Shown here: positions 1-19,981 of the stretch, piece after piece | How positions within the stretch are numbered: position 1 is the first letter of the stretch | Layout: the number at the start of each line of letters is the position of its first letter | Origin: a virus | Direction: 5' to 3' (one strand) | Length of the DNA stretch: 23,515 nt | IMG/VR virus record: IMGVR_UViG_3300032820_000124 | Span: 1 to 23,515 of that record | Made by a program: the position numbers and the translations under genes | Notes under the pieces: generated by a model | Database searches by the model: none | What the model was told of the DNA's origin: nothing | Seen by the model: the letters and a program-made list of their open reading frames with translations, nothing else

Positions 1-3000
1 CGCTGAATTAATTGATCCAGCTCCAGTAACAGTTGACATTGTGACTGTTGGATTTTGAGTATATCCTGAACCAGTATCAACTACTACAACATTTGAAACA
101 TATCCATTAGCAACTAAGACTGTCATCTTAGTATTACTTCCAGCTAATCCACTTACTGAATTCGTTTGCGCATTTGGATTTGCCCAAATCAAACAACCAT
201 TGACAAATGCTCCGGCTCCACTAGTAGCAATAGTTTTATTATTTGCGTTCGTTTTAATGGTAACAGAAGAAACGTTCTTTGATGTATTACCATCCAAGTG
301 AGTGACAGCCGAAACAATACCATAAACACCACTATTATTTGCATTCGTATCTGAAGCTACGTTACACATTACAGCTTCACCAACAACAAATGCTGCGGGG
401 TTACTACTGTCAACTGTATATCCACCATTGGCACTTGATATTGTAGTAGAATTTGAATTAACATTCATTGTCAATTCAACATGAACGTTTGCTGTTGCAG
501 TATTTGTAGTTCCACCACTTGTTATCGTTGCAGTATATGCCGATGACATAACATTCGTATAGCCAGAACCTTTAGTTGTTATTGAAAAATCTGAATTTGC
601 AAGTCCACCATTGTCAACATAATTTTCGACAGAAATTAAATTTAAGCGATCGATATCGATAACTGGTGATACATGAGAATTAGAAGATTTCATCTCTGCT
701 CTAATTCTAAAAGATCCATTAGTATATGCAAGTACTCTTTTTCTATCTGTTAATTCATAGTTTTGATCTGGACTAAATTTAACATAGGCTGCAGATCCTT
801 CAGTACCATCAGCTAATGTAAATGTTCCATTAGATGCTGCATATTTCCATTGTACTTCTGTATCACTAAAATCTATAGTAGAAGTTCCAACTTTGATTAC
901 ATCTGCCATTACGTTTGCTGTATTACCTGCGGCAGAATTTGCAGCGGTAATAAATTTTGCAAAGTTATTACTACTTCCTCCACCTATATCGAAATCAGCT
1001 CTTTGCATATTGAACATTACATACTTATTTGGATCTGCTTCCCAAACTCCTGCGTTTTGTGGTTTATAAAAAGAACCAACAAATGAAGGTTTGGATATTT
1101 TGGCAATAGACCCTGTAGATGTTTTTCCTTCTTCTGCCATGTGCACTTTATAATCTGTACTATTTGATGTAAGTACTAATGCATATTCATCAGGCGTCAA
1201 GAAAACAGGAGAATCAAAAGTAAATGTTGTTCGTGTAGTTGTGTTTGCAACCGCGGCGTTTGCCGTAGTTGAAGCCTGTACTCTATCTGGATTTAATGAA
1301 ACTTCACTAAATGGGATTACTTTAGAAGCACTTGGAAATCCGTTAACTATTGGTCGTAGTTGTAATTTAATTGGAAGATTAGTATCTTTTGAATAAAAAT
1401 TTAAAGTAACATTTCTTAAGAACAATCCTTTTGGAAATGCATTTGGATCAACATGAAATGTTTGACATAATGGATTAACCCAATTTGATTTTTCTGTTGA
1501 ACGTGAAGTAGTATCTCTGACAATTGCTATGTCATTAGGAAGTTCTCTTTGATTTATAGTTTCTCTTGTTGAAATTAATAACTGTTCACGGTTCTGTAAA
1601 ATTCCCTTTGTTACAAATGTTGATTCTGATGCGGTGACAGTAGCTTCGACATTATTAAATGCATTGTCTGTAATTCTAAGAAGTTTATTTCCTGATCTCC
1701 AAGTCGCATCTGGAAGATGGAATTCTCCTGCAATCTGGCCGGAGTCATCAGTTTGCATAATACCGTTAGCTACACTAACTTCATAGTGTACTCTCGTTGA
1801 AACGTTTGCTGTTGCGGTACTTGTTAATCCTTCTACATTATTCGCTACAGTAAATACGTGAGTAGCATCACCAATGGTTCCTGTTCCAAATGATTCACGT
1901 TGACCCTCTGGAAGAGAATTCGCTGATCCATATCGAGCGGAATCTGTAGAAGAAGTATTTCCTGTTATGTTTGAAAGAAAAACTGTAGCAGTATTATTAG
2001 TCGTATTAGAAGAGAACATAACTGTTCCATAATTATTTGCTCCATCTTTAAGTGTTTCACCTACTTGAAATGTTCCATTAACAGTAATAAGTGCTAATTT
2101 ACTTGCTGGTCTTATATTTGTAGACACATCAGTTTCACTAAAATATACATAAACATTAGTAAGTGGTTGTAATCCTGTTGCTGCGAATTGAATAACTTGT
2201 CCTCTTACATACGGCACAACTGTTGTATCAACAACCTTATTACCTATTGTTTTAAGAAGTGATTCTGGTGGAGTATTGGCACTAATTCCAACTCTTGATT
2301 TGGAATCCTTCATCTCCGATGTACTTCTATTTGCCTTGCCTGTCTTGCCTACTTTATCTACACCAGTTTGTGGTTGTTCGGTTACTTGTTTCCCTGTCCA
2401 GTTAGTACTCCAATCATCATATTGAGAACCAAATCCTGTTCTACCAGTAGATGGACTTAATGCCCAATTATCATTCTGACTTTCTAAGTTTGTTGTAACA
2501 TCAGGTCTTACTCCTTGTGAAAACCATGTATCAGAAACAGGATATGTTTTTATTCCACCAATCCAGTTTGTAATATTGAAAGGATTAAGAGCTTGAGTAG
2601 AACTTGAAAGTGGTTGTACAATAAAATCCACATCTGAATATGGAAGAGTTACCAAGTCACCCGTCTTTGTTACATTATTACTATATCCTAAACTATATGA
2701 AAGTCGATGGTTATCATAATAAAAACCCGGCCTCATTTCTTTCTTTGCATATTCTACTGAAATGTTATAATCATCATTCATTACATCACCTACAGAGTGG
2801 CCACTAAAAGAATCAACCAATATACCATTCTTAAATGATGTTCCTGTTGGATTAAATAAAGAATCTCTTGCAGCAGTAGTAGAAAAGTCTCTTGAAGCCG
2901 TTTCTTTTTCTAATATAGTCAACGCAGTATAATATTCTATTCTTTCAATCCTCTTTTCCAATTTACCAATATCTCTCATGGTAAATCGTTTGTTGTCAAT

Positions 3001-6000
3001 ATATCGTGTAGTGATATCAGTAAGATTAAAAGTATATGCCGGTATGCTCAATGAATACAATGTCATCGAATCTTCATCATCTGTAGGTGCTACTGGATTA
3101 AGGCCGGATTCCCCTCTAAGTACCTTGAATTTTCTATCTTTAGTAAGTGCTATTTTATCTACTCTTGACAAATAATAACTGAAAGATGAGGTAATTGTAC
3201 CATCTGGATCAGGAGTTGGAATTCCTTCAATTGCCAATGTAGCGTTCATATCATTATCTGCATTTTCCCTTCGTGGGCGTATATCGATACAATCTCTCAG
3301 AGAAACCATTTCTCCTGTAGTAGGACTAGTAAAATCTGGAATTACGCCATAATTAAACGTTAAGGTACTTGCAGCATCTACTTTATTATAAGACCCTGAT
3401 GTTGGATAAGAATCTACAGAGTGATAACCTTCACCACCATCCCAATCAAAGTAATCACACACAACCATAATTTTACCTGCGGGTCCCGGCTGGCCAGCTT
3501 TTAACTTAATAGTAGCATGATCATAAAAGTTATCTTTTTGTCCCGATTCAAATGTGTATCTACTGGTAATATTATTAGCCGATGCTACCATCATTGCCGC
3601 TGTAACGTGGATAAATGGTTGTCCTGAATCTACAACTTTTACCAAATTAAATGCATCCGAAACAGGAATAGAGTCCGTTCCGGTTTGTGTTTGATTTGGA
3701 GTTTCAAAATAAAACTGTCCACCCGCTACAGAAGTTGTGGGTACTGCGGGAGATCCAGTAGTCGCAATAATAGCTGATCCGTTTCCTGAAACCAATGTTT
3801 TTGTTCTTGGCCCCGGCTCTTTCTTTACAGAAGAACTTTCTACAGTATAAATAATATCTGCTACAAAAACAGCGCTGGTGTTACAATATATGTCTACTGA
3901 TTGTCTTGTACCATTAATTGTAACTGGCCTAATTGTTGTACCTGCATCATTAACTGCTCCTAAGTCAAGATAATTTCCTGTTGTCATTAATCTTGCTTCG
4001 GTTGCTGTTGCACTTGGAATTGTGGCAGTAGAAGAAACAGCATTAATAAATGTTTGAGCAGCATTGGGAGTCTTAACAACTACAATGAAATTTTCTTTTG
4101 CATTAGTTGTAGATATAGTACCACTACTAGGCATAAACCGATAATTAGGATTAGATAATGTAATAGTTAATTTTCCGGCCGAGTCCGATGAAAGGGCTTT
4201 CTCAACTTTCTTAAACGAGTAACTAACTGTATTACCTGTTCCTGAAGTTTCTTTAATTGGACTTTGAGGTAACGGAAAGACTAGAGTATTTTTATCTGTA
4301 TTAGATAAGAGTGTATTTCCTGAAGTACTACTATTATATTTTCCACTATCTGCAATATCGGCGTGTGTATTAATAGTAGGAGGCGCGGCTAATGTTGAAG
4401 TAATTATACTTTCTGCATCTTTAATTTTGAAATCTATATCGTAGGTAGTGTTAGCTATAGTTGCTTGAGTCAATACAGTATTGGCCACAACAAAATTCCC
4501 TGAATCCATCAACAATACTTTATCACCAGCAGTTCCTGTGGCGTCTTCCAAAAGAATTATATCACCTGCACTTGTACCAGCAGTCGATGACTCACAAGTA
4601 ACAAAATTGACAACAGAATAATAATCATCAATAATTCTAACATCACTTGAAACATCAATTCCACTTGTTGTATTAACTGTAATACTTGCACCTGTATATG
4701 CATCATTAACATAAGAAGTAGAATCAGCATTTAATTGAACTACTCTTGTATTAGCATCTTGAGTCTCAACTGTACCTGTGATATTATTTGAAGTATTAAC
4801 ATCCCAAAGATATAGTCTGTAATTAGAATGATTTGTGTCCGCGTATGATGAATTTCCAGAACTAGTATCCCAATCCATACTGCGAACTCTTGCAGTTCCA
4901 ACTTGAGTTGCCGCGTATGTGGTATTATTAGTTAAGTTAATCGAGGCAAAAGGAACTGAATGTATTTGACAAACTTCAGAAGCACCGACATCAAATAAAC
5001 TACTGGCAGTATCAACTACAAGATAGTTTCCTATTTCTGAGGTCATACTATAATCAGTAACAGATTCAGTATCCCTACCTTTATCTACATCAAGATATTG
5101 TGTATCAATACTCTCATATTCATAACCTTTTACATAAGCCTTACCTGCATCCATACCAGCAGAAATTTCAGACTCGTTGTAAATTATCGCATCACCTGTA
5201 TTTGTAGGAAGAGTTGTTTGTACTGTTAATCTTGTATTATTAGCAATTGCTGTAATAGTTGAAGTCACAGTATTAGATCCAAGATAAATCTCATCTCCTA
5301 CATCTACTTCAGTTAGGAAAAGAGTATTATTTCCATGTACTGTAGTACCATCAACACCTGATGCCACAGTTAACCCTGAAATTCCTCTATGAATTTTTAG
5401 ATCTAAATTAAATGGAGTGATTGTATAGTCACCAGACTCATCAAATGTTCGCCTTGCCAAAGTTTTTTCAAGTTCCCCATACATGGGATACTTAACTTCT
5501 TCATTTTTAATACCACTTATAACTTTTAACAGCTGAATAAAATTTTCATCTGCAAGTTGTAAAACTGGATCTGTTGAGGTAAGGGCTTTGTTTTTTAGAG
5601 CTAATTCAATCTTATATCTTGCAGCACCTGGTGCAGCATAGTTATAAGTACCTGAAGCTGGATCAAGTAACAGAGGATCATCATCACTTGTTTTTGTTGA
5701 TTCTGTAATTTCTAATCCAACACGTCCAGAAGGAGTTTTGGAATAGGCATCCATGATTATAGTGTTTGCGGGAGTAAAGAGGAAGAATCCACCAACATAA
5801 AATACGCCTGTATCGACACTAACAACTGAACCATTACCAGTAGCTCCAGTAAGACCGGATGCTCCAGCTGCACTAACAACTGTTGCTTGTACTGCTCCGG
5901 CCGCGATTGTTTCTCCGTCATCGAAAGTATCACCTGACAAATAATGGAACATTAACGTAGGTTGAGTACTTGAGGTGGCTGCCTGCGAAGCCACGACACG

Positions 6001-6321
6001 TGCACGGGCATTGGAAGTTGCACCAGTAATAGTAGTTCCGGAAAAAGAAGCGGCATTAATATTAACTCCCGATTCCTGAGTTTCTAGTTTAAGAGATTTA
6101 ACTTCAGTATCTAAAGTTACTTCTCCACCAAAAACTTTACTACCATCCTTAAACATGTGCTGACCATACCTCTCAATTTGTTTTTGAAGTATGGTCTGTA
6201 GTTGTGTTACTTCTCTTGCCTGTACTGCATACCCTGGTCTAAAAAGAATACGATAATAATTCGTTGACTCGTCATAATCATCATAATACGGCGTAACATT
6301 GAAATTTGTAGAAAGTGGCAT
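1..6321 (-). CDS. DUF4815-type giant virion structural protein, probably tail-fibre or baseplate-peripheral (C-terminus beyond the left edge)
   Basis: The frame runs without a stop from ATG at 6321 to base 1, giving at least 2107 residues. The start follows a strong ribosome site (AGAGGA, 7 bases upstream) and lies 25 bases after the gp8 stop. Residues 1-65 (MPLSTNFNVTPYYDDYDES, then RILFRPGYAVQAREVTQLQT) and residues 173-240 (VFYVGGFF, SGRVGLEITES, NYAAPGAARYKIEL) match the DUF4815 family of marine T4-like phages as I remember it. Later landmarks are a helical stretch at about 1108-1148 (RFTMRDIGKLEKRIERIEYY), a conserved Trp-rich part near 1250-1300, and CQTFHVDPNAFPKGLFLRNV from about residue 1617. 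Glycine-rich beta modules ending in GSGYTQNP lie near the left edge. Its place after gp8 and its length suggest a fibre or fibre-attachment role. That role is inferred; family membership is fairly certain. Confidence 0.9.
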   Translation of the reverse strand, partial: MPLSTNFNVTPYYDDYDESTNYYRILFRPGYAVQAREVTQLQTILQKQIERYGQHMFKDGSKVFGGEVTLDTEVKSLKLETQESGVNINAASFSGTTITGATSNARARVVASQAATSSTQPTLMFHYLSGDTFDDGETIAAGAVQATVVSAAGASGLTGATGNGSVVSVDTGVFYVGGFFLFTPANTIIMDAYSKTPSGRVGLEITESTKTSDDDPLLLDPASGTYNYAAPGAARYKIELALKNKALTSTDPVLQLADENFIQLLKVISGIKNEEVKYPMYGELEKTLARRTFDESGDYTITPFNLDLKIHRGISGLTVASGVDGTTVHGNNTLFLTEVDVGDEIYLGSNTVTSTITAIANNTRLTVQTTLPTNTGDAIIYNESEISAGMDAGKAYVKGYEYESIDTQYLDVDKGRDTESVTDYSMTSEIGNYLVVDTASSLFDVGASEVCQIHSVPFASINLTNNTTYAATQVGTARVRSMDWDTSSGNSSYADTNHSNYRLYLWDVNTSNNITGTVETQDANTRVVQLNADSTSYVNDAYTGASITVNTTSGIDVSSDVRIIDDYYSVVNFVTCESSTAGTSAGDIILLEDATGTAGDKVLLMDSGNFVVANTVLTQATIANTTYDIDFKIKDAESIITSTLAAPPTINTHADIADSGKYNSSTSGNTLLSNTDKNTLVFPLPQSPIKETSGTGNTVSYSFKKVEKALSSDSAGKLTITLSNPNYRFMPSSGTISTTNAKENFIVVVKTPNAAQTFINAVSSTATIPSATATEARLMTTGNYLDLGAVNDAGTTIRPVTINGTRQSVDIYCNTSAVFVADIIYTVESSSVKKEPGPRTKTLVSGNGSAIIATTGSPAVPTTSVAGGQFYFETPNQTQTGTDSIPVSDAFNLVKVVDSGQPFIHVTAAMMVASANNITSRYTFESGQKDNFYDHATIKLKAGQPGPAGKIMVVCDYFDWDGGEGYHSVDSYPTSGSYNKVDAASTLTFNYGVIPDFTSPTTGEMVSLRDCIDIRPRRENADNDMNATLAIEGIPTPDPDGTITSSFSYYLSRVDKIALTKDRKFKVLRGESGLNPVAPTDDEDSMTLYSLSIPAYTFNLTDITTRYIDNKRFTMRDIGKLEKRIERIEYYTALTILEKETASRDFSTTAARDSLFNPTGTSFKNGILVDSFSGHSVGDVMNDDYNISVEYAKKEMRPGFYYDNHRLSYSLGYSNNVTKTGDLVTLPYSDVDFIVQPLSSSTQALNPFNITNWIGGIKTYPVSDTWFSQGVRPDVTTNLESQNDNWALSPSTGRTGFGSQYDDWSTNWTGKQVTEQPQTGVDKVGKTGKANRSTSEMKDSKSRVGISANTPPESLLKTIGNKVVDTTVVPYVRGQVIQFAATGLQPLTNVYVYFSETDVSTNIRPASKLALITVNGTFQVGETLKDGANNYGTVMFSSNTTNNTATVFLSNITGNTSSTDSARYGSANSLPEGQRESFGTGTIGDATHVFTVANNVEGLTSTATANVSTRVHYEVSVANGIMQTDDSGQIAGEFHLPDATWRSGNKLLRITDNAFNNVEATVTASESTFVTKGILQNREQLLISTRETINQRELPNDIAIVRDTTSRSTEKSNWVNPLCQTFHVDPNAFPKGLFLRNVTLNFYSKDTNLPIKLQLRPIVNGFPSASKVIPFSEVSLNPDRVQASTTANAAVANTTTRTTFTFDSPVFLTPDEYALVLTSNSTDYKVHMAEEGKTSTGSIAKISKPSFVGSFYKPQNAGVWEADPNKYVMFNMQRADFDIGGGSSNNFAKFITAANSAAGNTANVMADVIKVGTSTIDFSDTEVQWKYAASNGTFTLADGTEGSAAYVKFSPDQNYELTDRKRVLAYTNGSFRIRAEMKSSNSHVSPVIDIDRLNLISVENYVDNGGLANSDFSITTKGSGYTNVMSSAYTATITSGGTTNTATANVHVELTMNVNSNSTTISSANGGYTVDSSNPAAFVVGEAVMCNVASDTNANNSGVYGIVSAVTHLDGNTSKNVSSVTIKTNANNKTIATSGAGAFVNGCLIWANPNAQTNSVSGLAGSNTKMTVLVANGYVSNVVVVDTGSGYTQNPTVTMSTVTGAGSINSA

Positions 6322-6346: not shown

Positions 6347-7996
6347 TTAGAATTCAATAATTAATTTAACATCTTCTATTTGGTCATCTGCTCTTGTTAC
6401 AGGTGAACGATTTTCTATGTAGAGAACATCTCCAGAAAATTTCTCTAAATCACCACCAACTACTGCACTAGTATTTGCTGATGCTCCACCAGCTCCTGTA
6501 AAAGTTTCATTTGCTTGAAACGATCCGGCAATACCATCATATCCAGTAGTAGTGTTTGATCCCATAGTAACATCAACTAATCTTAGAGTTGTGTTATTTT
6601 TGAAGTCAACAACTTTACCAGTTGCGCCTGACTGTGATGCAGTTACAAGTTCATCTTCTGCAAATGCTGTACTGTTCCAAGATTGAACTGTTATAGTTAC
6701 ACATTGATCAATAGTTGTTGCTGTTGCAACATCACCATTGGCATACAATGGTTGAGCTAAAAGACCGATTTTACGGAAATCGTTATTTGTTGTGAAGTTT
6801 CCAGATTCTCCGTATTCCAATCGACTATTAACCATTACAAAGAATCCACCTAATTCTTCAACTGCGTCATCACCATGTCCACCACGTGGGCCGATAATTG
6901 GTGTAACGGCTCCAGAAGAACCGGCGTTTGTAATAATCGTTGCTACGGCATTACCATAATTGTTACCACCGGCAACAACCACGATATCACCAATAGTACC
7001 AGATGCGGTATTAGTGGCACGAACATTTGCTCCATGACCATCACCAGTAATAGTGATTTTAGGACCGATAGAATATCCGTCACCGTCTGCTGGAACGTTA
7101 GCACTTGCTAATGCGGGTGTCCAAGTTACAACATCAGTACCAGCTTGGAAATCGGTAATTGTTCCACCTTTACCTGTAACACCACTTGCGGAGTCTGAAG
7201 TAAAGTAAATATCGTTGTTAACGATTTGATCAGTAGCCAAACCTGTACCTGAAATTTTACAAGTAGTTGTGGTTTCTGTGTGTCCTGATTGAACTGTTCC
7301 AGTTTCGAATGTATAAGAACTTCCAGCAGTTGTAACATGAACCACTTCAATGGCTCCATTACCTGAAGTATTTGCTGCAATTTCAACATCGTATTGAAAC
7401 GAAGAATCAGTAGTATTTGCAATCGCGTTATTTGCTTTACGTACACGCTGAGTAGGTATATAACTAGGCGTTACAAATTTAAGAGCTCTTGCGGCTGAGA
7501 TCTGATACATGAACTTCCATTTATAACTATCAGCTGTTGTGATAATGGCTGTTCCTGTTCCAGTAGGTTTAGTCGTAGATGCTCCACCAGCTTGATTGTT
7601 GGCGAGACATTTATAAACATTATAGTCATCTGTCATCACGTAAAATTGTTGATCGAACAGGGCATTATTTGCATGAGTATATGCGTAATAATTTGATGCT
7701 GTCGTCCAGTTATAGCGTGGTGCTACATGACTTACATCCGTAGATCCGATTTTCTTGGCTGCAATCATATCTCTCCAATGATTGTAGACCGTATTAGAAA
7801 CGGAATCGGTAGGGGTAGGCGGGGCTGTATCATCCGCCCAGCTGGTTACTTTACCAATAAATAAGTACATATTAGTATTGAGTAACCCACTTGCATCAGT
7901 TATTGCAGCGCCAGAAGTTGTAGAAATCTCATCGAAAGCCTCTACAAACTGTTTGGCGTTATGAATTCTGAATTTATTGGTTACTATAGCAGGCAT
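6347..7996 (-). CDS. 8: Baseplate wedge protein gp8
   Basis: 549 residues; ATG with GGAGG 9 bases upstream. The N-terminal ~190 residues are typical of gp8 from marine T4-like phages: MPAIVTNKFRIHNAKQF, then YLFIGKVTSWADD, PPTPTDSV, NHWRDMIAAKKI, VAPRYNW, QFYVMTDDYNVYKCL, TGTGTAI and YKWKFMYQISAARALKFV. T4 gp8 has 334 residues. The extra length is in the C-terminal two thirds, which is glycine- and threonine-rich beta sequence with ITGDGHGANVRA and GGHGDDAVEELGGFFVMVNS, then a repeat-like module near the end (GATGKVVDF). In T4, gp8 dimerises and binds gp7 and gp10 in the outer wedge. Here it follows the giant protein in the gp7 slot, after an 85-bp gap that may hold a promoter. Family assignment is firm; the role of the extra C-terminal part is unknown. 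Confidence 0.93.
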   Translation of the reverse strand: MPAIVTNKFRIHNAKQFVEAFDEISTTSGAAITDASGLLNTNMYLFIGKVTSWADDTAPPTPTDSVSNTVYNHWRDMIAAKKIGSTDVSHVAPRYNWTTASNYYAYTHANNALFDQQFYVMTDDYNVYKCLANNQAGGASTTKPTGTGTAIITTADSYKWKFMYQISAARALKFVTPSYIPTQRVRKANNAIANTTDSSFQYDVEIAANTSGNGAIEVVHVTTAGSSYTFETGTVQSGHTETTTTCKISGTGLATDQIVNNDIYFTSDSASGVTGKGGTITDFQAGTDVVTWTPALASANVPADGDGYSIGPKITITGDGHGANVRATNTASGTIGDIVVVAGGNNYGNAVATIITNAGSSGAVTPIIGPRGGHGDDAVEELGGFFVMVNSRLEYGESGNFTTNNDFRKIGLLAQPLYANGDVATATTIDQCVTITVQSWNSTAFAEDELVTASQSGATGKVVDFKNNTTLRLVDVTMGSNTTTGYDGIAGSFQANETFTGAGGASANTSAVVGGDLEKFSGDVLYIENRSPVTRADDQIEDVKLIIEF

Positions 7997-8081: not shown

Positions 8082-11000
8082 TCAGAGTTGATATACAGAG
8101 TCGCTTACTCCACCCGGCATACATTTTCTGGTTACCTCTAAAGAAGCATCATTAGTAATAGTTTTCACCATAAAAGCTTGTGGATCTACAATTATCATTT
8201 TTGACATATCTTCCCAGAGCATATTAATATGTTCCCATTCAGGAGTTTCTAGTTCAAGTTCTCCGACTTCAGCATCTAATCCAACTACAAGGGATTGGTT
8301 GGTTTCACTCGTAACAATACTAAAACTTTCGGCATCAGGATCACCAGTCCCATACGTTCCTATTACACCGGCATGTGTACCATGTGCGGCAACAGTAGTA
8401 TCTTCTGTAGTTATCAACCATCGAAAGTTTCTAATTTGTGTTCCTAATAAATCTGCAGCAAGATCCTCATTTTGTACATGAATAATTCGCGCTTCTTCGT
8501 GTTCTATTCTTTCATCACTTTCTAATAATATACCTCCACCAGTTTCTTCAGATATAATATTTTCATTTGCAGTTTGAAATTCATCTCCCACTTTAAGTTG
8601 AGAAGTAAATTCACTTCCAGATCCAGTCATGGCCGTGGCGCCATCTGCAATGGTAACTGTTCCTTTCATCCGCGTTAATATTCTACTATATTGATATGAG
8701 GGAAGAACAGTCCAAGTTTGATGTGGTGTAAACTCTACACCATAACCTTCTATTGGTGGTTTAGATGTTTCTAATAATGATCGCGATGTTCCTGTGTTAT
8801 TAATAACTGTAACTGAACCTCCCATTCCACTATGTGCAGTACAAAAATAATATATTGTGTCTGGTGTACTACCTGTAAGAGTATATTCTACATATGCTCC
8901 GGGATTACCATGAGCAGCCGAAGAGTGCGCATATCCTGCATCTGCAAGTACTACTCCACCAGCATGAGTACCATTTGCAGTAGATGAAAGTCTAAATGGA
9001 TGAGATGACACCGTAGAAGAACTTACAACAAATCTAATAGTGACCCCTCTTTCAATAGTTAACGATGTTTGTTCTACACCATCAATAATAAATGTGGGCG
9101 TGCCTGAAGCTGTTATAACATACGTTACATATTCTTCAGTCTGAATATAATCTTTTCTATTACCATCAATGGCCCCATCGGTTTGAAGAACATCTTCCAA
9201 CAAAATGAAATCCAAAACTTCTCTTTGAAGGTTCATCATATCTAAACCCAATTCAGGAAAATCTTCATGAAGTAAATAGTTTTGATTTGTTACAGGATGT
9301 TCTAAAATTATTAATCCTGAACCATCTTCTTGTGTAAATTTATCATCAACAAACCCCAATTCGGCTGTAGCCCATTGTGAAACATAATGTGGCCTAAAGG
9401 GTTGCATACCATAAGTTGCTGTAACATACTTATCTTTATAAGTTGAAATAGTATTTAATAAATGGTTTTCTGGCGTCCAATGAATTAAATCACTCGCCGC
9501 GGATTCTGAAACATAATGTTTAGTAATGTCCGGAATTTTATTTTCCGGATGATCTAAAAGTAATCTAGGGTTCTCACTATCCCCCACAGCTTTATGAACA
9601 TCTTCCATTGCAATAAAAGTATTGTAGTCAGAATAACTGAATAAGGTTTTATTTGCTGTTCCACCCATGCCGGAATGAGCATGACAATGGTAATATAGTG
9701 TTTGCGCTGTATTTGTTGCGTGTATTTGAACAAAAGCTCCTGCATATCCTGCAGTACCGTTTTCTAATACTCCATCAGTATAAGCAGTTCCCCCTCCATG
9801 ATGACCATCAGACGTTAGAGAAAATTTAAATGGATGGCCGATATTTGTTGAATCACTATTATCAAAACGATAAACTCTACCTCCCTGTAAAGTAATTGAA
9901 AGCTGGGCTACGGGTCCATTACCATCATCGATGTCTATTAAAAAGTGGCTAGATCCTGATGCAGTTACAGTATAGATAATAGGAGTGAGATCCGGCGACG
10001 CATCTTCTAACAATATATGTTGACCCATAGAATCAACTTTATAGATGTTCTTGTCTGTGGGTTGTAACAATTCAGTAGCTTTAATATTCACGTTCTCAGT
10101 AAGTAAACGTGTTCCATCTTCAAGCTTGGTATGTGTTACACCATCTTCTTGCATCAAATGCCAGTAAGTTGTCTCATAAAGATCATATTGTATTTGTTCA
10201 ATATGATTACCGGCCTTTACTAGACCTTCTTCTATAATCGCACGCGTTGTATCTTCATGAATAAGATGAGATTCATCTTCCATTCTTAGATGATAACCCA
10301 TTGTATCATAATGTTCTGTTTCTAATTCTACTAAAGGAGCTTTTACAGATCCAAACTCTACCAACATTCTAGTACCATCTTCATATATGGTATGAGATGA
10401 ATCCTCCATTCGTAAATGCCAATGTGTACTTTCCCAAAGGTCAAATATTAAATCAAGTTCATCGTTTTGATTTAATCCATATTCATCTTCTACTGAAAAA
10501 TAAGTATTAGTTGATCCTGAACTTCCTTCTTCGATTATATACGAACCGTCCTCTGCTATAATTGCATTATAAATTATATGTGAATCAATATGTTTACAGA
10601 ATCGATTATCATGTGTAATTGGTACAGTATCTAAGGCCAATAATGCTTCATCTTCCATCATAAAACGCGTTAGGTCGTCTTCTCCGATTAAATGATTTCC
10701 TGTTGAATTATACCAAGTTTCAATAACATGAGTATCTACAATTGGAATACTCTCATATTGTCGATCCGGTCCTTGTGTATCTTCTTCAAGAGAAATAAAT
10801 CTTTGTGGGCCATTACCTTGTCCCGCAGAAGTTTCATCTAAAAGATACCCCCACCCATAAGCTCCATTGTCGTCTTCAAGGAGTATGTCACTATTGAAAC
10901 TCACATCAATGGATATTACTCCTGTCTCAGCTTCAGGAAATTGAATTGATGGATAGAGAAAAGATCCTCCACGTTCAAGTAAAATCTCAGTACCATCTTC

Positions 11001-14000
11001 ATTTAGAATTCCACCAGCAAAGGGATAATCCCAATTTGTCGCATTCGCGCGGAAGACATCTGAATATGCTATTACTTTAGATTTCAGATAATTTGATGGT
11101 TCCATCATCAAATCGGAAGCATCTTCCATAATAACATTATTTCCAGATTGTTGGTCTTCTAACTGAATATAAAGAAATCCGTCATACATGGATTGTGAAA
11201 CGGCAGAGCCATGATCTGGTGATGGAGTAATAGTATATGTGTTTGTAGTGGGCGCGGATGTAACAGTATAATTGCTATTGAATTGTTGTCCAGATTCATC
11301 CCCAGAAAATTCAATCGTATCACCAGTTTCTAATCCATGTAATGTTTCTGTAACTACATACATTGTAGAATTGGTTCGTGCTATAGACGAAATTTCTACA
11401 TAATTTTCCAGTTGAAGATTTACTTCATCGAATGTTTCCAACCTTGCATCCATCGCTTGCCACGGATGGTTTGCAGTATAAATTTCCATCTCATTATTAC
11501 TACCATAAGATTGAAATTGTGCATTTGCAACAGTAGTATTACCGAACAGAGTAATGTTGTGATATTTTCTTCCTTCATTATCAGGGCCGGCCGTTACAAT
11601 AGTTCCCAAACTATCAACATTTCCACTTGCTCCCGCATCGAACATTTCTACAGATATTTTACTTCGTATAGCCAATTCACCAAACATTATTAAGCCGGAT
11701 GGATGAGTCAATCTTTTTACTGAATTACGATAATCGTTTACATCAAAATCAGTTTTTAGAACATAAGAAAAAGCTTGGTAGTATTTGTTGTCTTGAATTT
11801 TTGGTACACCACTAAGTAATCCCGTTGTAGCAGTATAATATCCAGGATATGTTGCATAAGCACCAAGTCCTGCAGTAAGTTCGGCGTTTTGATCACCAGA
11901 AGTAGTTGAAAGATTTGGAATAGAAGAATATCCTGCACCAAAATCATAAACTTCTGCAGCTTGAATTGCACCAATTGCAATGGCGGAAACTTCAATTACA
12001 GCATTATTACCTTTTGGTGAGGTATCCATGTAAACTGCATTAGATGTTGCAAGCCATACGGATGAAACTGGCATTGATCTAATCTCACCAGCAGGTGAAG
12101 CTACTCCATTTTCAGGTAAAGTGTAACTATAGGTATTTGAAGTTAGAACAGTTATTGGCCATATTCCATTCACTTGTGCAGTTGTACATCCAGAAATTTT
12201 AACTTTGTCACCTGATCTTAAATAGTGTCCTGTATCTGTTACGGTAACTGTTTTATTTCCTGTACCACTACCTGCTGCTGTAACTTCTCGATTTATTCCC
12301 CATGTCAATGCAGAATTATAACTAATTGAATATGTGTTACCCGCGCCTACTGTTTTTGAATCTGCTACTGTGAATGATGTGGTATTTGTCCATCCTGTAA
12401 TTGTAGAGGTAGCATCATCGTGATATGTAATAGTTCCACGAACCGAGTCATTAGGAAATGTAGTACCAACTCCTGTAACTGTAGTCCCCGATTGAGCCAT
12501 AGTTCCTGTGGTGTATGTAGAAACGACATTACTATGTGCGGTAACACGTTCACCTGTTGTGGCTTCTGTATAAAATCTTGTTTCATCTTCTGCAACAAGT
12601 AGATCATCTGCTTCTGTTATAATGAATTCAACGCAATCTTCTGTTAAAAATATACCACCTCCACCTTGAGCAGATCCAACTGTAGCTGATTCAAGTAGAA
12701 GTTTTTCATGGGAATATCTGTCATTATGAAAATCTTTTTCTTCTAATAATATATGTTCTACTGTTGAACCAAAATCTTGAGTGGTAGTCATATCCACTCT
12801 AAGAGTTGTGTTGCCGTTAGCAATGTATGGATTGGCGGTAGATAAAGTTCCCTTGTCTATAAAATCAAGAACTCTTCCCCTTGCAGAATAATCATCATTA
12901 TAGAGTAAAGTGTTTTTTGTGATGTTATTTGCAAGAGCCATGTATGAAAGAGAATAGGTTTGCTTATCGGGAAGATCACCCGTACCAAGTCCAAAAATTT
13001 TCTCTGTAGCTACTCTAATAACAGTAGAATTAGTAACTGCAGTTACATTATCTGTAGCTCCATTTGCGTATGTAAGTGTAAGTACTCCAGAATTCGCATC
13101 CGGAAATGAATCTTCACTAGTTAAGGTGACTACATTACCATCTTGTGCAATTGTTCCTGAAGTAAATGAATGTAAATTTACATTAAGCAAGGCGTTAGGA
13201 GCACCTACTACATCTAATGCATTTCCTAAAGTTGGAGTATAATTATTAGCAACACTAACAGGAGGTGATGTTTCATATCCACCTCCACCTGATGTAAGTG
13301 CAAATGTATCAATTGCTCCAACATCAACAGAAGTCATATTGAGAGCACCATTACAAACAGCAATTACATCGGGTAATGCACCATGAGCATCAACCATAGT
13401 AAAAGTATTAGTTGTTACAGCGGCGGGAGTATTACCAGCTTGAAAGGTAACGCCATTATGCATATTATGTGCATCTACACCTGAACCCGCGACTGCGGCT
13501 CCCAATTTAGTAAATTTATTATTATATACTATGATGTTATCATCATTAACAAAATTCTGTACAGTCAAAGCATCTATGTCATTATCACGATAATAAGAAC
13601 CAACAGAATATAAAAATGCGGTAGTATTGGCACTAATAACTGTACCCCAATAAGTATTGCTTGCATAATCAACGGTGAATGCTTGACCCGCTCCAATTGT
13701 GTGAGTATCCCTAACTAGTAAAACAGTATTACTGGAAAATCCTGTAACAATATTAGTATTCGCGTTTGCATAAGTAAGTTTACCACCAACAATATCTATT
13801 TTTTCATTATCAGAGAGGCCCGTTGAAAGAGTAACAGTTTTTACTGATTGTGTAAGGGTTACGCCTGATGTGTTTACACTTGCGACCTTCGCAATTCTAT
13901 CTCCGGCAAGAATATGTAAGGTAGCATCATAGTTACCTGTGGAGCCATAAAGTTTTGCGGAACTTGCTTTAATTCCTGCAGAAAATGTTAGAGAAGAATT

Positions 14001-15407
14001 ACCAAACAAAGCTGTATTAGCATTGTGTCCAATAAGTGTTGATGTATAGTCTGAAGCCGCTATTTGTTTTAATTGAAAAGCAGATACGAGATCTGTATTT
14101 CTTAATATTGCACCTGTAGAAATAATTGATTGGACTTGTCCTGCCGCTCCACTTCCACCGGTTCCATCATTAATAAAGTCAACTTGATCTCCTACGGCAT
14201 ATCCATCTCCAGAATCTATAACATCAATACCCTCAACAACAGAATCTAAAATAGATGAAACTCTCGCACGTGCGCCTTGGCCTCCACCACCAGCAACATG
14301 AATTTCATCACCGACTACATAGTTGGTTCCACCAACATCTACAGTAACAGTTTGTAAAATTCCTGATGTGACTGCTTCTGCATATAATCCATCTATATCA
14401 GTTTCGGATGTAATTACTTCAGCGGGCTTGAAATAAAACAATACTCCGTCAACAACGCCCTGCACAACATCTGATAATGTTAATTCAGTAACTTCAAGAG
14501 CTCCCGCAAAAGAAGTAAGTTGTTTTTCCACCATAGCGGTACACTTGGAAAGTGCACCCGTGATTCTTCTACCAGTGAATAAATTAATATTATTTGCACC
14601 GGCTGTTATAATTTTAATTGATTTATCAAGTGCCCATTTCCCATCAGATAGTTTCAATAGATCTGTTTTGGGATAATAAAATTCTATATCTTCTTTATTA
14701 AACAATGATTGAAATAACCAACTAAAAGAAGCCTCATTTCCTTTTGACCTATAGACCTGCTTCATTCTTTTAAGAAGTTGTCGTCTATCTGTAACTGCTG
14801 TCGTTGGAATATTTGTATAAAATTCTTTTTTCCATGCATCTTCAATAAGACCAATAGATGTAGTATCAATATCTTGGTCTAAAGATAATTCTCTTATTGC
14901 TGCGGCGGGTGCTTTTGAACGAAAAGAATCTACTGAGGCTGTGGGGAATATTCCATCAACAATACCATTTGCTAAAGTGCCGTATGAACCGGTGACACTA
15001 CCTGTAAGTTTTTCTCCGTATGTAAATCCTGCTACGCTAGAAGATTTTACAAAAGCAATAGTATTACCTTTTGTACCAGAAACAACTGCGGTTGCTCCAC
15101 TTATATTACCTGTAAGGGTTTCTCCAAGTGAGAACATGAGATTTGCATTACCGGCCGTATCACGTTCAGACTCTAATTGAAGGCGAACACCATCTTCATA
15201 TAAAAAATAGCTAGTACCATCTGATTCATCTACTAGCTTGTCATCATTGAATGTAAATGAGGTGCCAAAATAAAGTTGGTGGGATTCCATAAATTCATAG
15301 TATTTTTCTATGAATTTTTTGAACTTCGGATGTTGGGCGTTTATAAACTCTGGTAACTGAGTTTCCAATAAAACAGATACATCTTTTTTATCTTTGACTA
15401 CAGCCAC
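8082..15407 (-). CDS. Giant baseplate-wedge-associated structural protein in the gp7 slot, with two cupredoxin-like modules
   Basis: 2441 residues starting at GTG, 2 bases after the gp6 stop, and lying between gp6 and gp8 where T4 has gp7 (1032 residues). I see no clear gp7 sequence similarity, so the equivalence is positional. Residues 13-42 (LPEFINAQHPKFKKFIEKYY) resemble N-termini of marine myovirus wedge-region proteins. Residues ~91-148 hold paired SGATAVV-type beta modules. Glycine-rich modules (VVGDEIHVAGGGG, GDGYAVGDQV) follow at ~355-430. Three divergent beta repeats lie at ~525-1035. Residues ~1196-1243 (KIQDNKYYQAFSYVLKTDF, HPSGLIMFGEL) match a motif I recall from marine phage structural proteins. 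Acidic LxED repeats fill much of 1410-1805. Cupredoxin-like modules lie at 1812-1925 and 2096-2203. A GTVTIADGATAMTGSGSEF beta module is near the C-terminus. No signal peptide or membrane segment is seen. A structural role is likely; exact placement in the virion is inferred. Confidence 0.88.
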   Translation of the reverse strand: MAVVKDKKDVSVLLETQLPEFINAQHPKFKKFIEKYYEFMESHQLYFGTSFTFNDDKLVDESDGTSYFLYEDGVRLQLESERDTAGNANLMFSLGETLTGNISGATAVVSGTKGNTIAFVKSSSVAGFTYGEKLTGSVTGSYGTLANGIVDGIFPTASVDSFRSKAPAAAIRELSLDQDIDTTSIGLIEDAWKKEFYTNIPTTAVTDRRQLLKRMKQVYRSKGNEASFSWLFQSLFNKEDIEFYYPKTDLLKLSDGKWALDKSIKIITAGANNINLFTGRRITGALSKCTAMVEKQLTSFAGALEVTELTLSDVVQGVVDGVLFYFKPAEVITSETDIDGLYAEAVTSGILQTVTVDVGGTNYVVGDEIHVAGGGGQGARARVSSILDSVVEGIDVIDSGDGYAVGDQVDFINDGTGGSGAAGQVQSIISTGAILRNTDLVSAFQLKQIAASDYTSTLIGHNANTALFGNSSLTFSAGIKASSAKLYGSTGNYDATLHILAGDRIAKVASVNTSGVTLTQSVKTVTLSTGLSDNEKIDIVGGKLTYANANTNIVTGFSSNTVLLVRDTHTIGAGQAFTVDYASNTYWGTVISANTTAFLYSVGSYYRDNDIDALTVQNFVNDDNIIVYNNKFTKLGAAVAGSGVDAHNMHNGVTFQAGNTPAAVTTNTFTMVDAHGALPDVIAVCNGALNMTSVDVGAIDTFALTSGGGGYETSPPVSVANNYTPTLGNALDVVGAPNALLNVNLHSFTSGTIAQDGNVVTLTSEDSFPDANSGVLTLTYANGATDNVTAVTNSTVIRVATEKIFGLGTGDLPDKQTYSLSYMALANNITKNTLLYNDDYSARGRVLDFIDKGTLSTANPYIANGNTTLRVDMTTTQDFGSTVEHILLEEKDFHNDRYSHEKLLLESATVGSAQGGGGIFLTEDCVEFIITEADDLLVAEDETRFYTEATTGERVTAHSNVVSTYTTGTMAQSGTTVTGVGTTFPNDSVRGTITYHDDATSTITGWTNTTSFTVADSKTVGAGNTYSISYNSALTWGINREVTAAGSGTGNKTVTVTDTGHYLRSGDKVKISGCTTAQVNGIWPITVLTSNTYSYTLPENGVASPAGEIRSMPVSSVWLATSNAVYMDTSPKGNNAVIEVSAIAIGAIQAAEVYDFGAGYSSIPNLSTTSGDQNAELTAGLGAYATYPGYYTATTGLLSGVPKIQDNKYYQAFSYVLKTDFDVNDYRNSVKRLTHPSGLIMFGELAIRSKISVEMFDAGASGNVDSLGTIVTAGPDNEGRKYHNITLFGNTTVANAQFQSYGSNNEMEIYTANHPWQAMDARLETFDEVNLQLENYVEISSIARTNSTMYVVTETLHGLETGDTIEFSGDESGQQFNSNYTVTSAPTTNTYTITPSPDHGSAVSQSMYDGFLYIQLEDQQSGNNVIMEDASDLMMEPSNYLKSKVIAYSDVFRANATNWDYPFAGGILNEDGTEILLERGGSFLYPSIQFPEAETGVISIDVSFNSDILLEDDNGAYGWGYLLDETSAGQGNGPQRFISLEEDTQGPDRQYESIPIVDTHVIETWYNSTGNHLIGEDDLTRFMMEDEALLALDTVPITHDNRFCKHIDSHIIYNAIIAEDGSYIIEEGSSGSTNTYFSVEDEYGLNQNDELDLIFDLWESTHWHLRMEDSSHTIYEDGTRMLVEFGSVKAPLVELETEHYDTMGYHLRMEDESHLIHEDTTRAIIEEGLVKAGNHIEQIQYDLYETTYWHLMQEDGVTHTKLEDGTRLLTENVNIKATELLQPTDKNIYKVDSMGQHILLEDASPDLTPIIYTVTASGSSHFLIDIDDGNGPVAQLSITLQGGRVYRFDNSDSTNIGHPFKFSLTSDGHHGGGTAYTDGVLENGTAGYAGAFVQIHATNTAQTLYYHCHAHSGMGGTANKTLFSYSDYNTFIAMEDVHKAVGDSENPRLLLDHPENKIPDITKHYVSESAASDLIHWTPENHLLNTISTYKDKYVTATYGMQPFRPHYVSQWATAELGFVDDKFTQEDGSGLIILEHPVTNQNYLLHEDFPELGLDMMNLQREVLDFILLEDVLQTDGAIDGNRKDYIQTEEYVTYVITASGTPTFIIDGVEQTSLTIERGVTIRFVVSSSTVSSHPFRLSSTANGTHAGGVVLADAGYAHSSAAHGNPGAYVEYTLTGSTPDTIYYFCTAHSGMGGSVTVINNTGTSRSLLETSKPPIEGYGVEFTPHQTWTVLPSYQYSRILTRMKGTVTIADGATAMTGSGSEFTSQLKVGDEFQTANENIISEETGGGILLESDERIEHEEARIIHVQNEDLAADLLGTQIRNFRWLITTEDTTVAAHGTHAGVIGTYGTGDPDAESFSIVTSETNQSLVVGLDAEVGELELETPEWEHINMLWEDMSKMIIVDPQAFMVKTITNDASLEVTRKCMPGGVSDSVYQL
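8799..9122 (-). other. Cupredoxin-like module 2 in the giant protein (residues ~2096-2203)
   Basis: This module runs from YVITASGTPTFII to SVTVIN. It has the cupredoxin order of elements: a strand followed by LTIERGVTIRFVV, then SHPF with His2136, an internal loop ANGTHAGG, and finally YYFCTAHSGMGG with Cys2189, His2192 and Met2195. The C-x2-H-x2-M spacing is that of amicyanin. The first His precedes the Cys by 53 residues, longer than in amicyanin. All four residues of a type 1 copper site are present. Copper binding is inferred and could have been lost, leaving only a structural or adhesive fold. Confidence 0.6.
9633..9974 (-). other. Cupredoxin-like module 1 in the giant protein (residues ~1812-1925)
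   Basis: This module runs from YTVTASGSSHFLIDI to GGTANKTLF. LSITLQGGRVYRFDNSDS is followed by GHPFKFS with His1858, the loop SDGHHGGG, and YYHCHAHSGMGG with Cys1908, His1911 and Met1914. Cys comes 50 residues after the first His. It is clearly paralogous to module 2, with shared HPF, DG/NG-H-GG, GA-V and YY-C-AHSGMGG. From memory, similar modules ending in YYYC-x2-HS-x-MGG recur in marine cyanophage structural proteins. The fold is likely; metal occupancy is unproven. Confidence 0.62.
9993..10691 (-). repeat. Acidic 'LxED' tandem protein repeats in the giant protein (residues ~1573-1805)
   Basis: The clearest units begin at residues 1665 (LRMEDSSHTIYEDGTRMLVE), 1707 (LRMEDESHLIHEDTTRAIIE), 1751 (LMQEDGVTHTKLEDGTRLLT) and 1798 (ILLEDASPD), so the period is 42, 44 and 47 residues. 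Each pairs H-L-x-x-E-D with a second E-D-x-T-R about 10 residues later. Looser units extend upstream to 1573 (LIGEDDLTRFMMED). Single copies are scattered from residue ~67 (FLYEDGVRLQLE) to the C-terminal region (GGGILLESDERIEHEEARI). Clustered acidic residues could bind divalent cations or stabilise a beta-solenoid; neither is shown by sequence. Confidence 0.65.
12300..13840 (-). repeat. Three divergent copies of a ~70-residue beta-rich module in the giant protein
   Basis: The copies lie at about 13641-13840, 12940-13165 and 12300-12513. Shared landmarks include LTYANANTNIVTGFSSNTV then TIGAGQAFTVDY (copy 1), LTYANGATDNVTAVTNSTV then KQTYSLSY (copy 2), and ITYHDDATSTITGWTNTTS then TVGAGNTYSISY (copy 3). 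Copies 2 and 3 also share openings (SGTIAQDG, TGTMAQSG). The alternation of small polar and hydrophobic residues suggests a beta-sandwich. The duplications are old: alignment is obvious in protein but I see no long identical DNA. Confidence 0.6.
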
Positions 15408-15421
15408 GTTTAATACCCAGT
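15405..15421 (-). promoter_or_regulatory. GTG start of the giant gene with only a weak ribosome site
   Basis: The minus strand reads ACTGGGTATTAAACGTG. The gp6 stop TAA is followed by AC and then GTG. Only GGG about 9 bases upstream resembles a Shine-Dalgarno sequence, whereas most genes here have GGAG, AGGA or AAGGAG. The next in-frame Met is about 40 residues later, inside the conserved N-terminal motif, so GTG is the best start. Reinitiation by ribosomes finishing gp6 would explain how the gene is translated. Confidence 0.6.
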
Positions 15422-17287
15422 TGAGAGAGTTGTACCATCAGTAGTTGCTATAGTGCCTTCGACATACGTACCTGTTCCAGCATCATCCAACATTGTAATA
15501 GTAATATCATCTGATTCGATTAAGATAATTTGTTCTCTGAGAGGATTAACATCTGATGAAGATGGTGTAACAAAAAACTCTAATGGTGTAGTATTTCCAG
15601 TAGTTTCAGAACCTACAGAGATTGGTTTATAATCTTTAAGTTCCATTTTTCCGGTGAGGTAAGTCATTGTTCCTACATTATTATTAACAATGATTCGATC
15701 TTCTCCTGAAGTTCTATACACTTCAAGAGTTCCATTATTATCTTGTAATCTACATTCATCCCATAATGTATTTGCAGAATCGTAATATCCAAATACTCCA
15801 CTAGTTACTGCACCCCAAAAAGTATTTGAGGGGTGATAGACCTGATTAGAAAATGGTAGAGTATAGGCTCCACTCGATCCCAATAATGGATAAAGTAATC
15901 TTTTTAGTTGAAGGGAAGTTTGATTACTTTTAACGGAAATTTCTGCTTCATCAATTGCTTGAATTAATTTTGAATATCTAAATCCTTTGTCAAAGTTTTT
16001 TAAATTGGTATCTCCAAAATCTGTAACTGCGGTGGTTACTGTTGATTTAAGTACTGATGCACTATTTGTAGTTTTACCGGAATCATATTTAACTGTACTA
16101 CTAACCTTTAAATACATATAATCCGGATCTACAACTTCTGGAGTAATTCCAACAATATTTCTTTTTGCCAATATTTCATCTTGAACGAACTTTTTAGAAG
16201 CTTCTGAAAGAACTGTTCCGGATGTTGGTTTAATAGCTACATAAACTTTTCCATAAATTGGGGGATCTGCATCTTCTCCACCCCAAGCAACAACTGCTTG
16301 TGCATCACCATAATCTCTTTTAACTAAAGCTACATAATCATGAATTGTGACACATCGATTTTGAGCATCGAAATTTTTGGGTGCATTGAATTTAATCTCA
16401 TCAATATCTGCGGGTACAGCTCCGCCTGAAGCGGAAGAGGTGGTTTCTATTTTTACATTAGAATATCCACCAACATCAGTCACAACCGAAAATGCTTTAG
16501 CTCCATTAGTCGCATCAGCATCACAAGTTAAACTTGACAATATAACAATATTTCCATTTGCTAATATTTTTCCTAATATTCCATCACCAAATTGAACTTC
16601 AAATTTCCCATCTTCGATTTCATCTATAAAATAAACTGTTGAAATAGAGTTTACAGTAGTGATATCAGTAGCTTCTGTATATACTACTGTTTCGGAATCA
16701 CTAGCAGATACTTGAACAGAAACTTCTAAAGTACTTATATCTGTATTTGCATTAGGAAGAATATATTTTTGATCTGGATCACCTGTATTTGCTGTATATC
16801 TAAATGTTGAAGGTATCCCCTGGTTAAGATCTATACTATCTACAGTATAAACACCATTGGCATTAATGTTTACTGAATGAGAATTAGAAGTACACCAAAT
16901 ATATGATATACCCGATACTTCACCCTGAAATTGTGTATTTTTGGGAATACTTATAGAAGGAGGAGAGCCGGTTGGAGTAATAGTAAGTGTAACTGCGGCC
17001 AATGATCCTTGTGCAGAACGGGGCCGATAACCAAGATGTTTTGCTCTTGCTACAACAGAATTTCTAAGAGAAGCGGAATCTAAGAACATCTCATTAGCAA
17101 TCATATTTGCATAATATGAATTATAATGAGTATTATATGCCATTATGTCAAGGAGAACATCAAAAGAAGAACCTTTAAAATTATATCCTACAAAATCAGA
17201 TTGACTTGTTAAAAATCCTGTGAGATTTTCTTTAATTTTTGCGAAGTCTAATTCTGATATATTAAGTTTACCCGCTGAGCTTGCCAT
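15410..17287 (-). CDS. 6: Baseplate wedge protein gp6
   Basis: 625 residues, close to T4 gp6 (660). The ATG lies 3 bases after the gp25 stop, with AGAGGA 8 bases upstream, so translation is probably coupled. The N-terminus has the family core: ISELDFAKIKENLTGFLTSQ, then SFDVLLDIMAYNTHYNSYYA, ANEMFLDSASLRNSVVARAK and LGYRPRSAQG (to about residue 94). A J-like baseplate region follows (FEVQFGDGILGKILANGNIV; NRCVTIHDYVALVKRDYGDA). The C-terminal part has VDPDYMYLKVSSTVKYDSGK and KNFDKGFRYSKLIQAIDEAE. In T4, gp6 dimers form the continuous ring that ties the six wedges together and whose rearrangement triggers contraction; gp25 and gp53 bind it. The gene order 25-6-(7 slot)-8 supports the call. 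Confidence 0.95.
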   Translation of the reverse strand: MASSAGKLNISELDFAKIKENLTGFLTSQSDFVGYNFKGSSFDVLLDIMAYNTHYNSYYANMIANEMFLDSASLRNSVVARAKHLGYRPRSAQGSLAAVTLTITPTGSPPSISIPKNTQFQGEVSGISYIWCTSNSHSVNINANGVYTVDSIDLNQGIPSTFRYTANTGDPDQKYILPNANTDISTLEVSVQVSASDSETVVYTEATDITTVNSISTVYFIDEIEDGKFEVQFGDGILGKILANGNIVILSSLTCDADATNGAKAFSVVTDVGGYSNVKIETTSSASGGAVPADIDEIKFNAPKNFDAQNRCVTIHDYVALVKRDYGDAQAVVAWGGEDADPPIYGKVYVAIKPTSGTVLSEASKKFVQDEILAKRNIVGITPEVVDPDYMYLKVSSTVKYDSGKTTNSASVLKSTVTTAVTDFGDTNLKNFDKGFRYSKLIQAIDEAEISVKSNQTSLQLKRLLYPLLGSSGAYTLPFSNQVYHPSNTFWGAVTSGVFGYYDSANTLWDECRLQDNNGTLEVYRTSGEDRIIVNNNVGTMTYLTGKMELKDYKPISVGSETTGNTTPLEFFVTPSSSDVNPLREQIILIESDDITITMLDDAGTGTYVEGTIATTDGTTLSTGY

Positions 17288-17290
17288 GTG

Positions 17291-17683
17291 TTATGTCCTC
17301 TGTAAATAGACTTCTAGTGTCGTTTCTTGTATATCATTATCTGGCATATAAATTATAATTACTTCATATGCGTTTTCATCTTCTTTGGCTTTTACAGTTA
17401 TATTTGCTATTTTTGCTCTAGGTTCATATTTCTCTATAGTATGTTTAATTGTCTTTTCTAACCTAGAAGTTGTAAGCTTACTGAAATTTTCAAATAAAAG
17501 AATTCCAATTCCACTATCTATGCTTGGTTGAAATAGTCTTTCATTTGCATTCGTACTTAATAGGTTTTTTATAGACCTACTAATAGCTGTTGATTTTTTG
17601 ATAGTAGACAAATCTCCATGAGCTGGATGTTTTGTAAAATCCATGTCAAAATCAACGTAATCTTTTCCGTATGTAGTAGCCAT
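17291..17683 (-). CDS. 25: Baseplate wedge protein gp25
   Basis: 130 residues, nearly the T4 gp25 length (132). It belongs to the gp25/TssE family shared by contractile phage tails, R-type pyocins and type VI secretion. The diagnostic EPR motif is at residues 87-89 (KYEPRAKI). Other family features are AISRSIKNLLSTNANERLF at 34-51, IDSGIGILLFEN at 55-66, and a C-terminal strand (LEVYLQRT). In T4, gp25 binds the gp6 dimer and contacts the sheath-initiating end, linking wedge to sheath. The gene follows the second-longest gap of the window, which carries ACTAAATA, so it may begin a transcript through gp6 and the giant gene. The ribosome site is weak (AAGAG). Confidence 0.96.
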   Translation of the reverse strand: MATTYGKDYVDFDMDFTKHPAHGDLSTIKKSTAISRSIKNLLSTNANERLFQPSIDSGIGILLFENFSKLTTSRLEKTIKHTIEKYEPRAKIANITVKAKEDENAYEVIIIYMPDNDIQETTLEVYLQRT

Positions 17684-19806: not shown

Positions 19807-19981
19807 TTTGTTTTTCCTTTTCAGCTTTTCTAATCTTTGCCCTTAATACATTTTCCCAAGCTTGTTTTTTTATTCCCATGATCTCCGAATACATTCCAGC
19901 AAGTTGTTTAGTATTTTCTAACAATTTCTTAATATCATCTCTTCTTAATTCTGCTTCTTTCCATTTATTTTCTTCAGCCAT
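19799..19981 (-). CDS. Small charged coiled-coil protein, 60 residues
   Basis: The start ATG overlaps the upstream stop in TAATG, with AAGGAG 8 bases before it. The end overlaps the next gene by 8 bases (ATGGCTGA). This double coupling and the strong ribosome site argue it is real despite its size. The sequence is almost wholly helical and charged: MAEENKWKEAELRRDDIKKL, then a less polar centre (LAGMYSEIMGIKKQAWENVL), then a Lys/Glu-rich tail (RKAEKEKQNG). There is no Cys or known motif. It could be a small chaperone, a clamp for one of its large neighbours, or a minor virion part. Family not recognised. Confidence 0.75.
   Translation of the reverse strand: MAEENKWKEAELRRDDIKKLLENTKQLAGMYSEIMGIKKQAWENVLRAKIRKAEKEKQNG

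Follow-up and report, generated by a model that had tools for sequence, protein, structure and literature searches.

Two cupredoxin modules with predicted type 1 copper sites in a gp7-position baseplate protein of a T4-like marine phage

In this study, we analyzed a stretch of viral DNA (hereafter the window), an entire IMG/VR entry of 23,515 bases whose large genes all lie on the minus strand, and found that a giant structural protein encoded within it contains two homologous cupredoxin modules, each with the complete His, Cys, His and Met set of a type 1 copper site. The conservation of those residues and the predicted fold around them strongly imply that both modules bind copper, and we consider a true copper-type site, as opposed to a relic, very probable. 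Module 1 spans residues 1812-1921 of the protein (9645..9974, minus strand; profile E 4.9e-37) and module 2 residues 2093-2204 (8796..9131, minus strand; profile E 2.6e-32). The ligand residues of module 1, all in invariant columns, are His1858 (codon 9834..9836, minus strand) and the loop C1908-x2-H1911-x2-M1914 (9666..9686, minus strand; codons 9684-9686, 9675-9677 and 9666-9668, respectively). Their counterparts in module 2, likewise invariant, are His2136 (9000..9002, minus strand) and the loop C2189-x2-H2192-x2-M2195 (8823..8843, minus strand; codons 8841-8843, 8832-8834 and 8823-8825). All eight positions had been proposed in an earlier sequence-only reading of this DNA and proved exact when read from the ORF translation. 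The same reading had noted that two diverged copies both retain the full set, which holds as well, as the modules are homologous (41% identity over 112 residues, E 5e-21) and the ligands are complete in both. A profile built from the relatives described below found exactly two copies in the window, modules 1 and 2, and the linker of about 171 residues between them (9132..9644, minus strand) had no match reported in Pfam or PHROG searches.

Judged from its gene content, the window holds the cluster of baseplate wedge genes from a T4-like marine phage. The gene order is gp25 (17291..17683, minus strand; PF04965, E 9e-10), gp6 (15410..17287, minus strand; PF21379; phrog_219, E 6e-169), the giant protein (8082..15407, minus strand; 2441 residues with a GTG start) and gp8 (6347..7996, minus strand; PF09215, E 2e-16; phrog_438, E 6e-100), the first three of which are all baseplate wedge positions, as is gp8. 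A second giant protein (1-6321, minus strand) runs off the window start, and two large proteins encoded upstream of gp25 (17731-19806, 691 residues, and 19981-22653, 890 residues) matched no PHROG family. By its place between gp6 and gp8, together with the matches that follow, the 2441-residue protein is identified as the gp7-position wedge/adaptor protein of a T4-like baseplate. It passes the cut-off of the Pfam Baseplate_wedge model PF23786 (28.8 bits against 27), it also matches PHROG baseplate wedge and structural families, and its N-terminal part resembles the corresponding gene of the phages Mosig, Melnitz and HTVC008M. The modules are thus correctly placed in a phage baseplate-region protein, as had been proposed. 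The nearest cultured phages by gp6 are the pelagiphages Mosig and HTVC008M and the Methylophilales phages Melnitz, at ~39% identity.

The giant protein contains only eight Cys residues, two of which are copper-site ligand positions. It also has many short repeats of the form hh-x-ED-G/A/S-x-x-h-h-h-E, for example LRMEDSSHTIYEDGTRMLVE, at residues about 69-80, 1410-1810 and 2024-2075; they are dense immediately before module 1 and are present between the modules too. When viral contigs were scanned with module 1 alone, only an overlapping record was returned. The record IMGVR_UViG_3300032278_000098 (26902 bp, longer than the window by about 3.4 kb) encodes both modules with 100% amino acid identity in a 2451-codon frame, and probably represents the same virus population as the window.

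Structure prediction gives, with high confidence, the cupredoxin fold that had been proposed for the two modules. The AlphaFold2 models have a mean pLDDT of 95.2 and a pTM of 0.88 for module 1 (alignment of 86 relatives), and 89.1 and 0.82 for module 2 (alignment of 85 relatives). For both, the top solved-structure match (VIA) is the type-1-Cu domain 2dv6_A, the N-terminal cupredoxin of the three-domain nitrite reductase of Hyphomicrobium denitrificans, with a Z of 10.2 (2.8 A over 103 residues) for module 1 and 9.2 (3.2 A over 103 residues) for module 2; rusticyanin, nitrite reductases (CuNiR) and laccase domains rank behind it in both cases. The ligand positions in both models are likewise those of cupredoxins: the first His stands just before a strand, the Cys is at the end of the last strand but one, and the loop leading into the final strand holds the distal His and Met. 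The margin of 2dv6_A over the rest of the VIA list is modest and middling Z values are common; the identity of the modules would not be settled by the fold by itself, but is by fold and ligands together. A beta-sandwich protein of Pithovirus LCPAC302 (BFVD A0A481Z6J5) also matches module 1 structurally (Foldseek E 1.8e-5, TM 0.62), and the fold of the module may therefore occur in giant viruses too.

Sequence comparison with known copper proteins gave weak scores and an informative register. In hhalign, the profile of the relatives aligned with amicyanin (a sequence confirmed against 1aac) at a weak E of 0.012, placing the four residues on H53, C92, H95 and M98 with the Cys-His-Met loop free of gaps. 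Plastocyanin scored better than amicyanin, although still weakly (E 9e-4), and its longer loop shifts the Met by its two extra residues. As the plastocyanin loop misplaces the Met, the amicyanin spacing is supported, and the C-x2-H-x2-M loop is indeed in register with C92, H95 and M98 of amicyanin, as the sequence-only reading had it. The Pfam profiles gave a divided outcome. Module 2 passes the cut-off of PF25489, the At5g54830-like domain, over nearly the whole model (30.0 bits against 27) and falls just below that of PF00127, Copper-bind (19.2 bits against 21.2), which both modules miss; module 1 matched neither PF25489 nor any Pfam copper model at cut-off. That the family lies below the Copper-bind cut-off is probably why it has gone unnoticed so far. 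Searches of PDB sequences, with phmmer for module 1 and with a profile of 14 relatives, returned chance antibody matches only.

That the pattern lies far outside chance expectation is shown by relatives of the modules, which were collected from viral contigs and bacterial genomes. In a set of 86 relatives, made non-redundant at the level of 80% identity, invariance was confined to the four ligand columns, and the same was found with module 2 as the reference (85 sequences) and in the 76 relatives under 70% identity, where only the four ligand columns reached 100%. Some of the patterns used in the search for relatives themselves contained ligand residues, and as a control we used the sequences with the loop TANGTH[AG]G, which is free of ligands but was itself a search pattern. 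His, Cys, His and Met were complete in 66 of 66 distinct sequences of that subset, which is less diverse (14 sequences at 80% identity) and has invariant columns other than the ligands. The same loop has a further, neighboring conserved His, for which several bacterial sequences have W, F, E or a gap instead, so conservation does not extend to every His. The suggestion that selection acts on the site is therefore borne out by invariance confined to the ligands in all three sets of 86, 85 and 76 relatives.

Cultured phages, read in about 20 phage records, gave a comparable picture. About 21 complete modules had all four ligands (further copies in Syn1 and S-RIM32, cut by the fetched stretch, were left out of the counts), and these intact modules occur in gp9 of Syn33, P-RSM4, MA01 and ACG-2014d, in gp10 of P-RSM4 and Syn33, in structural proteins of S-TIM61, Syn1, S-RIM32, S-CAM4, S-H9-1 and S-H9-2, in tail fibers of Mosig, Baldr, P-SSM2, Bellamy and P-TIM68, and in a protein of the podovirus P-SCSP2. 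Five complete modules are degenerate, with the Cys, distal His and Met all absent together; they belong to a fiber of P-RSM4, S-SSM6b and S-RS29 and to the second domain of the S-H9-1 and S-H9-2 structural protein. As these represent two kinds of protein only, they probably record two loss events. Loss of a single ligand was not seen among the modules from the about 20 phage records. The Cys is therefore not freely lost in homologs: full-length hits keep all four residues, and the five degenerate paralogs lose Cys, His and Met as a group. That single loss of a ligand was never seen in the tail proteins of many cyanophages and SAR11 phages suggests that these virions carry copper. The degenerate fiber module is in a cyanophage protein (T4-GC 345 in P-RSM4; L249:3362-4816, L252:1889-3379 and L265:877-2364), and P-RSM4 combines a fiber module that has lost the Cys, distal His and Met with intact modules in its gp9 and gp10.

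The module is widespread in marine phages. Using tblastn, module 1 matched at least 274 of 50,697 phage records, nearly all of them named as Synechococcus or Prochlorococcus phage, cyanophage, pelagiphage or Methylophilales phage, and module 2 matched 124 phage records of much the same make-up. The statement in the earlier reading that similar modules occur in marine cyanophage structural proteins was thus confirmed with both modules. Foldseek against viral models returned a virion structural protein of S-TIM5, tail fiber-like proteins of P-SSM2, and gp9 of S-H34 and S-RIM14. Cyanophages carry the same module C-terminally in gp9 and also in gp10, whereas in the pelagiphage Mosig it forms a separate gene, named tail fiber, between the gp7-like gene and gp8. 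Among contigs of bacterial genomes, L193 encodes the N-terminus of a T7-type tail fiber together with the module and L227 has it in a gp7-like protein. The database names of the relatives are only structural, hypothetical, fiber or connector. A small phage structural protein with the module, about 220-290 residues long in most cases and with an N-terminus like SDRSGFRY..LKEEWNG, was observed near head-tail genes (L164:5461-6255, L165, L166, L174, L182, L200 and L241) in contigs binned as marine bacteria.

The matches from contigs of bacterial genomes include many phage proteins alongside others that look cellular. In the L167 lipoprotein, the module stands behind cadherin and Big domains, and in Flavobacteriia and other Bacteroidota it occurs in giant surface proteins (L168, and L179 with DUF285, FG-GAP and Big domains). 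Cellular-looking lipoproteins with ACGGGGG lipoboxes were seen in SAR86, OM182 and other gammaproteobacteria, and putative exported lipoproteins end in the module in L167, L173, L185, L190, L202, L207, L208, L232 and others, with no copper genes evident next to those that were inspected. In marine Betaproteobacteria, a protein of ~330 residues, which may be cellular or viral, carries the module (L199, L215, L235, L240 and L242), with a C-terminal DUF4214 domain in L215. No copper-handling operon was evident beside five of the relatives in genome contigs, where neighborhoods were judged from ORF starts. In a poorly resolved tree of 86 modules (5 of 83 branches starred), viral and cellular sequences were intermixed, and modules 1 and 2 were not sisters and sat on long branches. 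Common to these occurrences is an accessory domain that would be exposed on the surface, in marine microbes as well as in the phages that infect them.

The explanation that we favor as a whole, and which we consider rather probable, is that the gp7-position protein carries, near its C-terminus, two copper-organized cupredoxins as accessory docking modules at the baseplate periphery. Each module would bind one copper ion, which would hold in shape both the fold and the exposed surface surrounding the distal His and Met. The module would be located on the outer part of the baseplate, to which gp9, gp10 and the fibers are attached, and could there offer a fiber or the host envelope an additional surface for docking. 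In T4, gp7 is present as one copy per wedge and six per baseplate, and each of six positions has a trimer of gp9 and one of gp10; two modules per gp7-position protein would therefore give about 12 sites per baseplate. Our main argument for such a role is one of placement. This is because the module is carried by the gp7-position protein here, by a separate gene in Mosig and by gp9 and gp10 in cyanophages, and would thus reach the same place by different routes in three phage types, which points to a role at the fiber or host side. The cellular relatives are exported lipoproteins or surface proteins that contain repeats of the cadherin, Big or FG-GAP type, a surface setting as in the phages. 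The docking role taken on its own is the least certain step, and we propose it tentatively, as possible but somewhat doubtful. Counting against this explanation is that phages assemble in the host cytoplasm, which is usually copper-poor.

Other explanations of the site would assign it a different task or none. Possibly, the metal, whether copper or another thiophilic one such as Zn or Ag, is only a staple for folding and stability in a small beta-sandwich spacer domain that contributes neither to host contact nor to redox chemistry. The presence of the module in many different structural proteins, as a generic building block, including the small proteins near the head-tail junction (L164) and a protein near the portal in S-TIM61, would fit such a staple. 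However, the paralogs in P-RSM4, S-SSM6b, S-RS29, S-H9-1 and S-H9-2 lack the ligands yet still show the fold signature. The fold thus seems not to depend on the metal, and strict retention elsewhere needs a further reason; we regard a mere staple as unlikely. A copper-loaded module might instead mimic an extracellular copper protein and dock on an outer-membrane copper receptor, comparable to the Ferrojan or Trojan horse idea for phage tails, for which iron-binding HxH sites in tail fibers and the hypothesis itself are published (PMC11705849). Azurin, an extracellular cupredoxin, was reported to bind the TonB-dependent receptor OprC (PMC6907878), which would favor such a lure, but the report is disputed, as the contact was not reproduced with functional OprC (PMC8610252). 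The hosts concerned, moreover, span cyanobacteria, SAR11 and Methylophilales, which speaks against it. We know of no receptor for these phages, and we judge the lure quite improbable.

The completeness of the ligand set could also indicate redox chemistry, with the site taking or giving an electron at the cell surface or sensing an oxidant, for example as a baseplate trigger, as electron-transfer cupredoxins use the complete type 1 set. Against that, no redox partner domain was recognized in the giant protein or the window using Pfam and PHROG, and the common loop C-T-N-H-S-G-M-G is small and polar, whereas the docking patch of amicyanin and plastocyanin is hydrophobic; such a function appears very unlikely. 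We give equally little credence to a metal-independent adhesion domain, such as one binding carbohydrate, whose ligand residues are kept for another reason. Its cellular relatives do reside in adhesin-like proteins and 4 of 14 members have weak matches to Pfam CBM_4_9 (best E 5.7e-4), but the fully displayed match (L232) is under the curated cut-off, and the positions that never change are copper ligands, with no sugar-binding patch among them. An ordinary Ig-like sandwich with a chance His, Cys, His and Met pattern was also considered, since phage tails are rich in Ig-like domains and the phmmer search with module 1 met antibodies, even if by chance; it is contradicted by the invariance of exactly the four ligands, the cupredoxins at the top of the VIA list and the amicyanin register, and is scarcely credible.

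The fold and the site of the modules are of a known kind, whereas their recurrent use as a virion module was not found in the open-access literature: titles and abstracts in PubMed Central (open access) held no description of a recurrent virion cupredoxin with an intact type 1 site. If copper is bound, phages of Synechococcus, Prochlorococcus and SAR11, which outnumber all other bacteria in the sea, have a metalloprotein cofactor at the infecting end of their tails, with a bearing on cyanophage adsorption and on trace-metal chemistry, as T4 copy numbers would imply tens of tightly bound Cu per virion. More speculatively, and with a probability that we consider low, marine phages of several lineages may use copper-loaded baseplate and fiber cupredoxins to find or open the host, and their virions may constitute an unrecognized pool of strongly bound colloidal copper in sea water, which if true would parallel, for copper, the role proposed for phage tails in iron. 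Copper binding would also bear on the annotation of hundreds of genes now named hypothetical or fiber.

Among known systems close to the modules, the C-terminal domains of cyanophage gp9 and gp10 and proteins annotated as tail fiber or virion structural (phrog_677, phrog_693, phrog_30742 and phrog_708) have a domain of the same family, and their intact copies keep all four ligands as do the modules in the window. Elsewhere the module resides in gp9, gp10 or separate fibers, whereas here two copies lie within a gp7-position protein. With amicyanin and plastocyanin (PF00127) the modules share the cupredoxin fold and the His ... Cys-x2-His-x2-Met set, with the loop length of amicyanin; they differ in having a conserved S-x-T-x-x-G-T-H-x-GG loop after the first His and in being domains inside giant tail proteins and not soluble periplasmic electron carriers. 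In fold they are nearest to the N-terminal type-1-Cu domain of 2dv6/6tfo (Z 10.2 and 9.2 for modules 1 and 2, respectively), followed by rusticyanin (Z 8.5 and 8.6), at 12-20% identity, although the former is part of an enzyme and the latter a free redox carrier. PF25489, the domain matched by module 2 and not by module 1, is named after a plant membrane protein, At5g54830. The iron-binding HxH sites of T4 gp37 and marine phage fibers likewise place metal-binding residues in tail proteins (PMC11705849), but those sites hold iron between paired His residues in a fiber trimer, whereas each module described here is a folded domain with a predicted copper site of its own.
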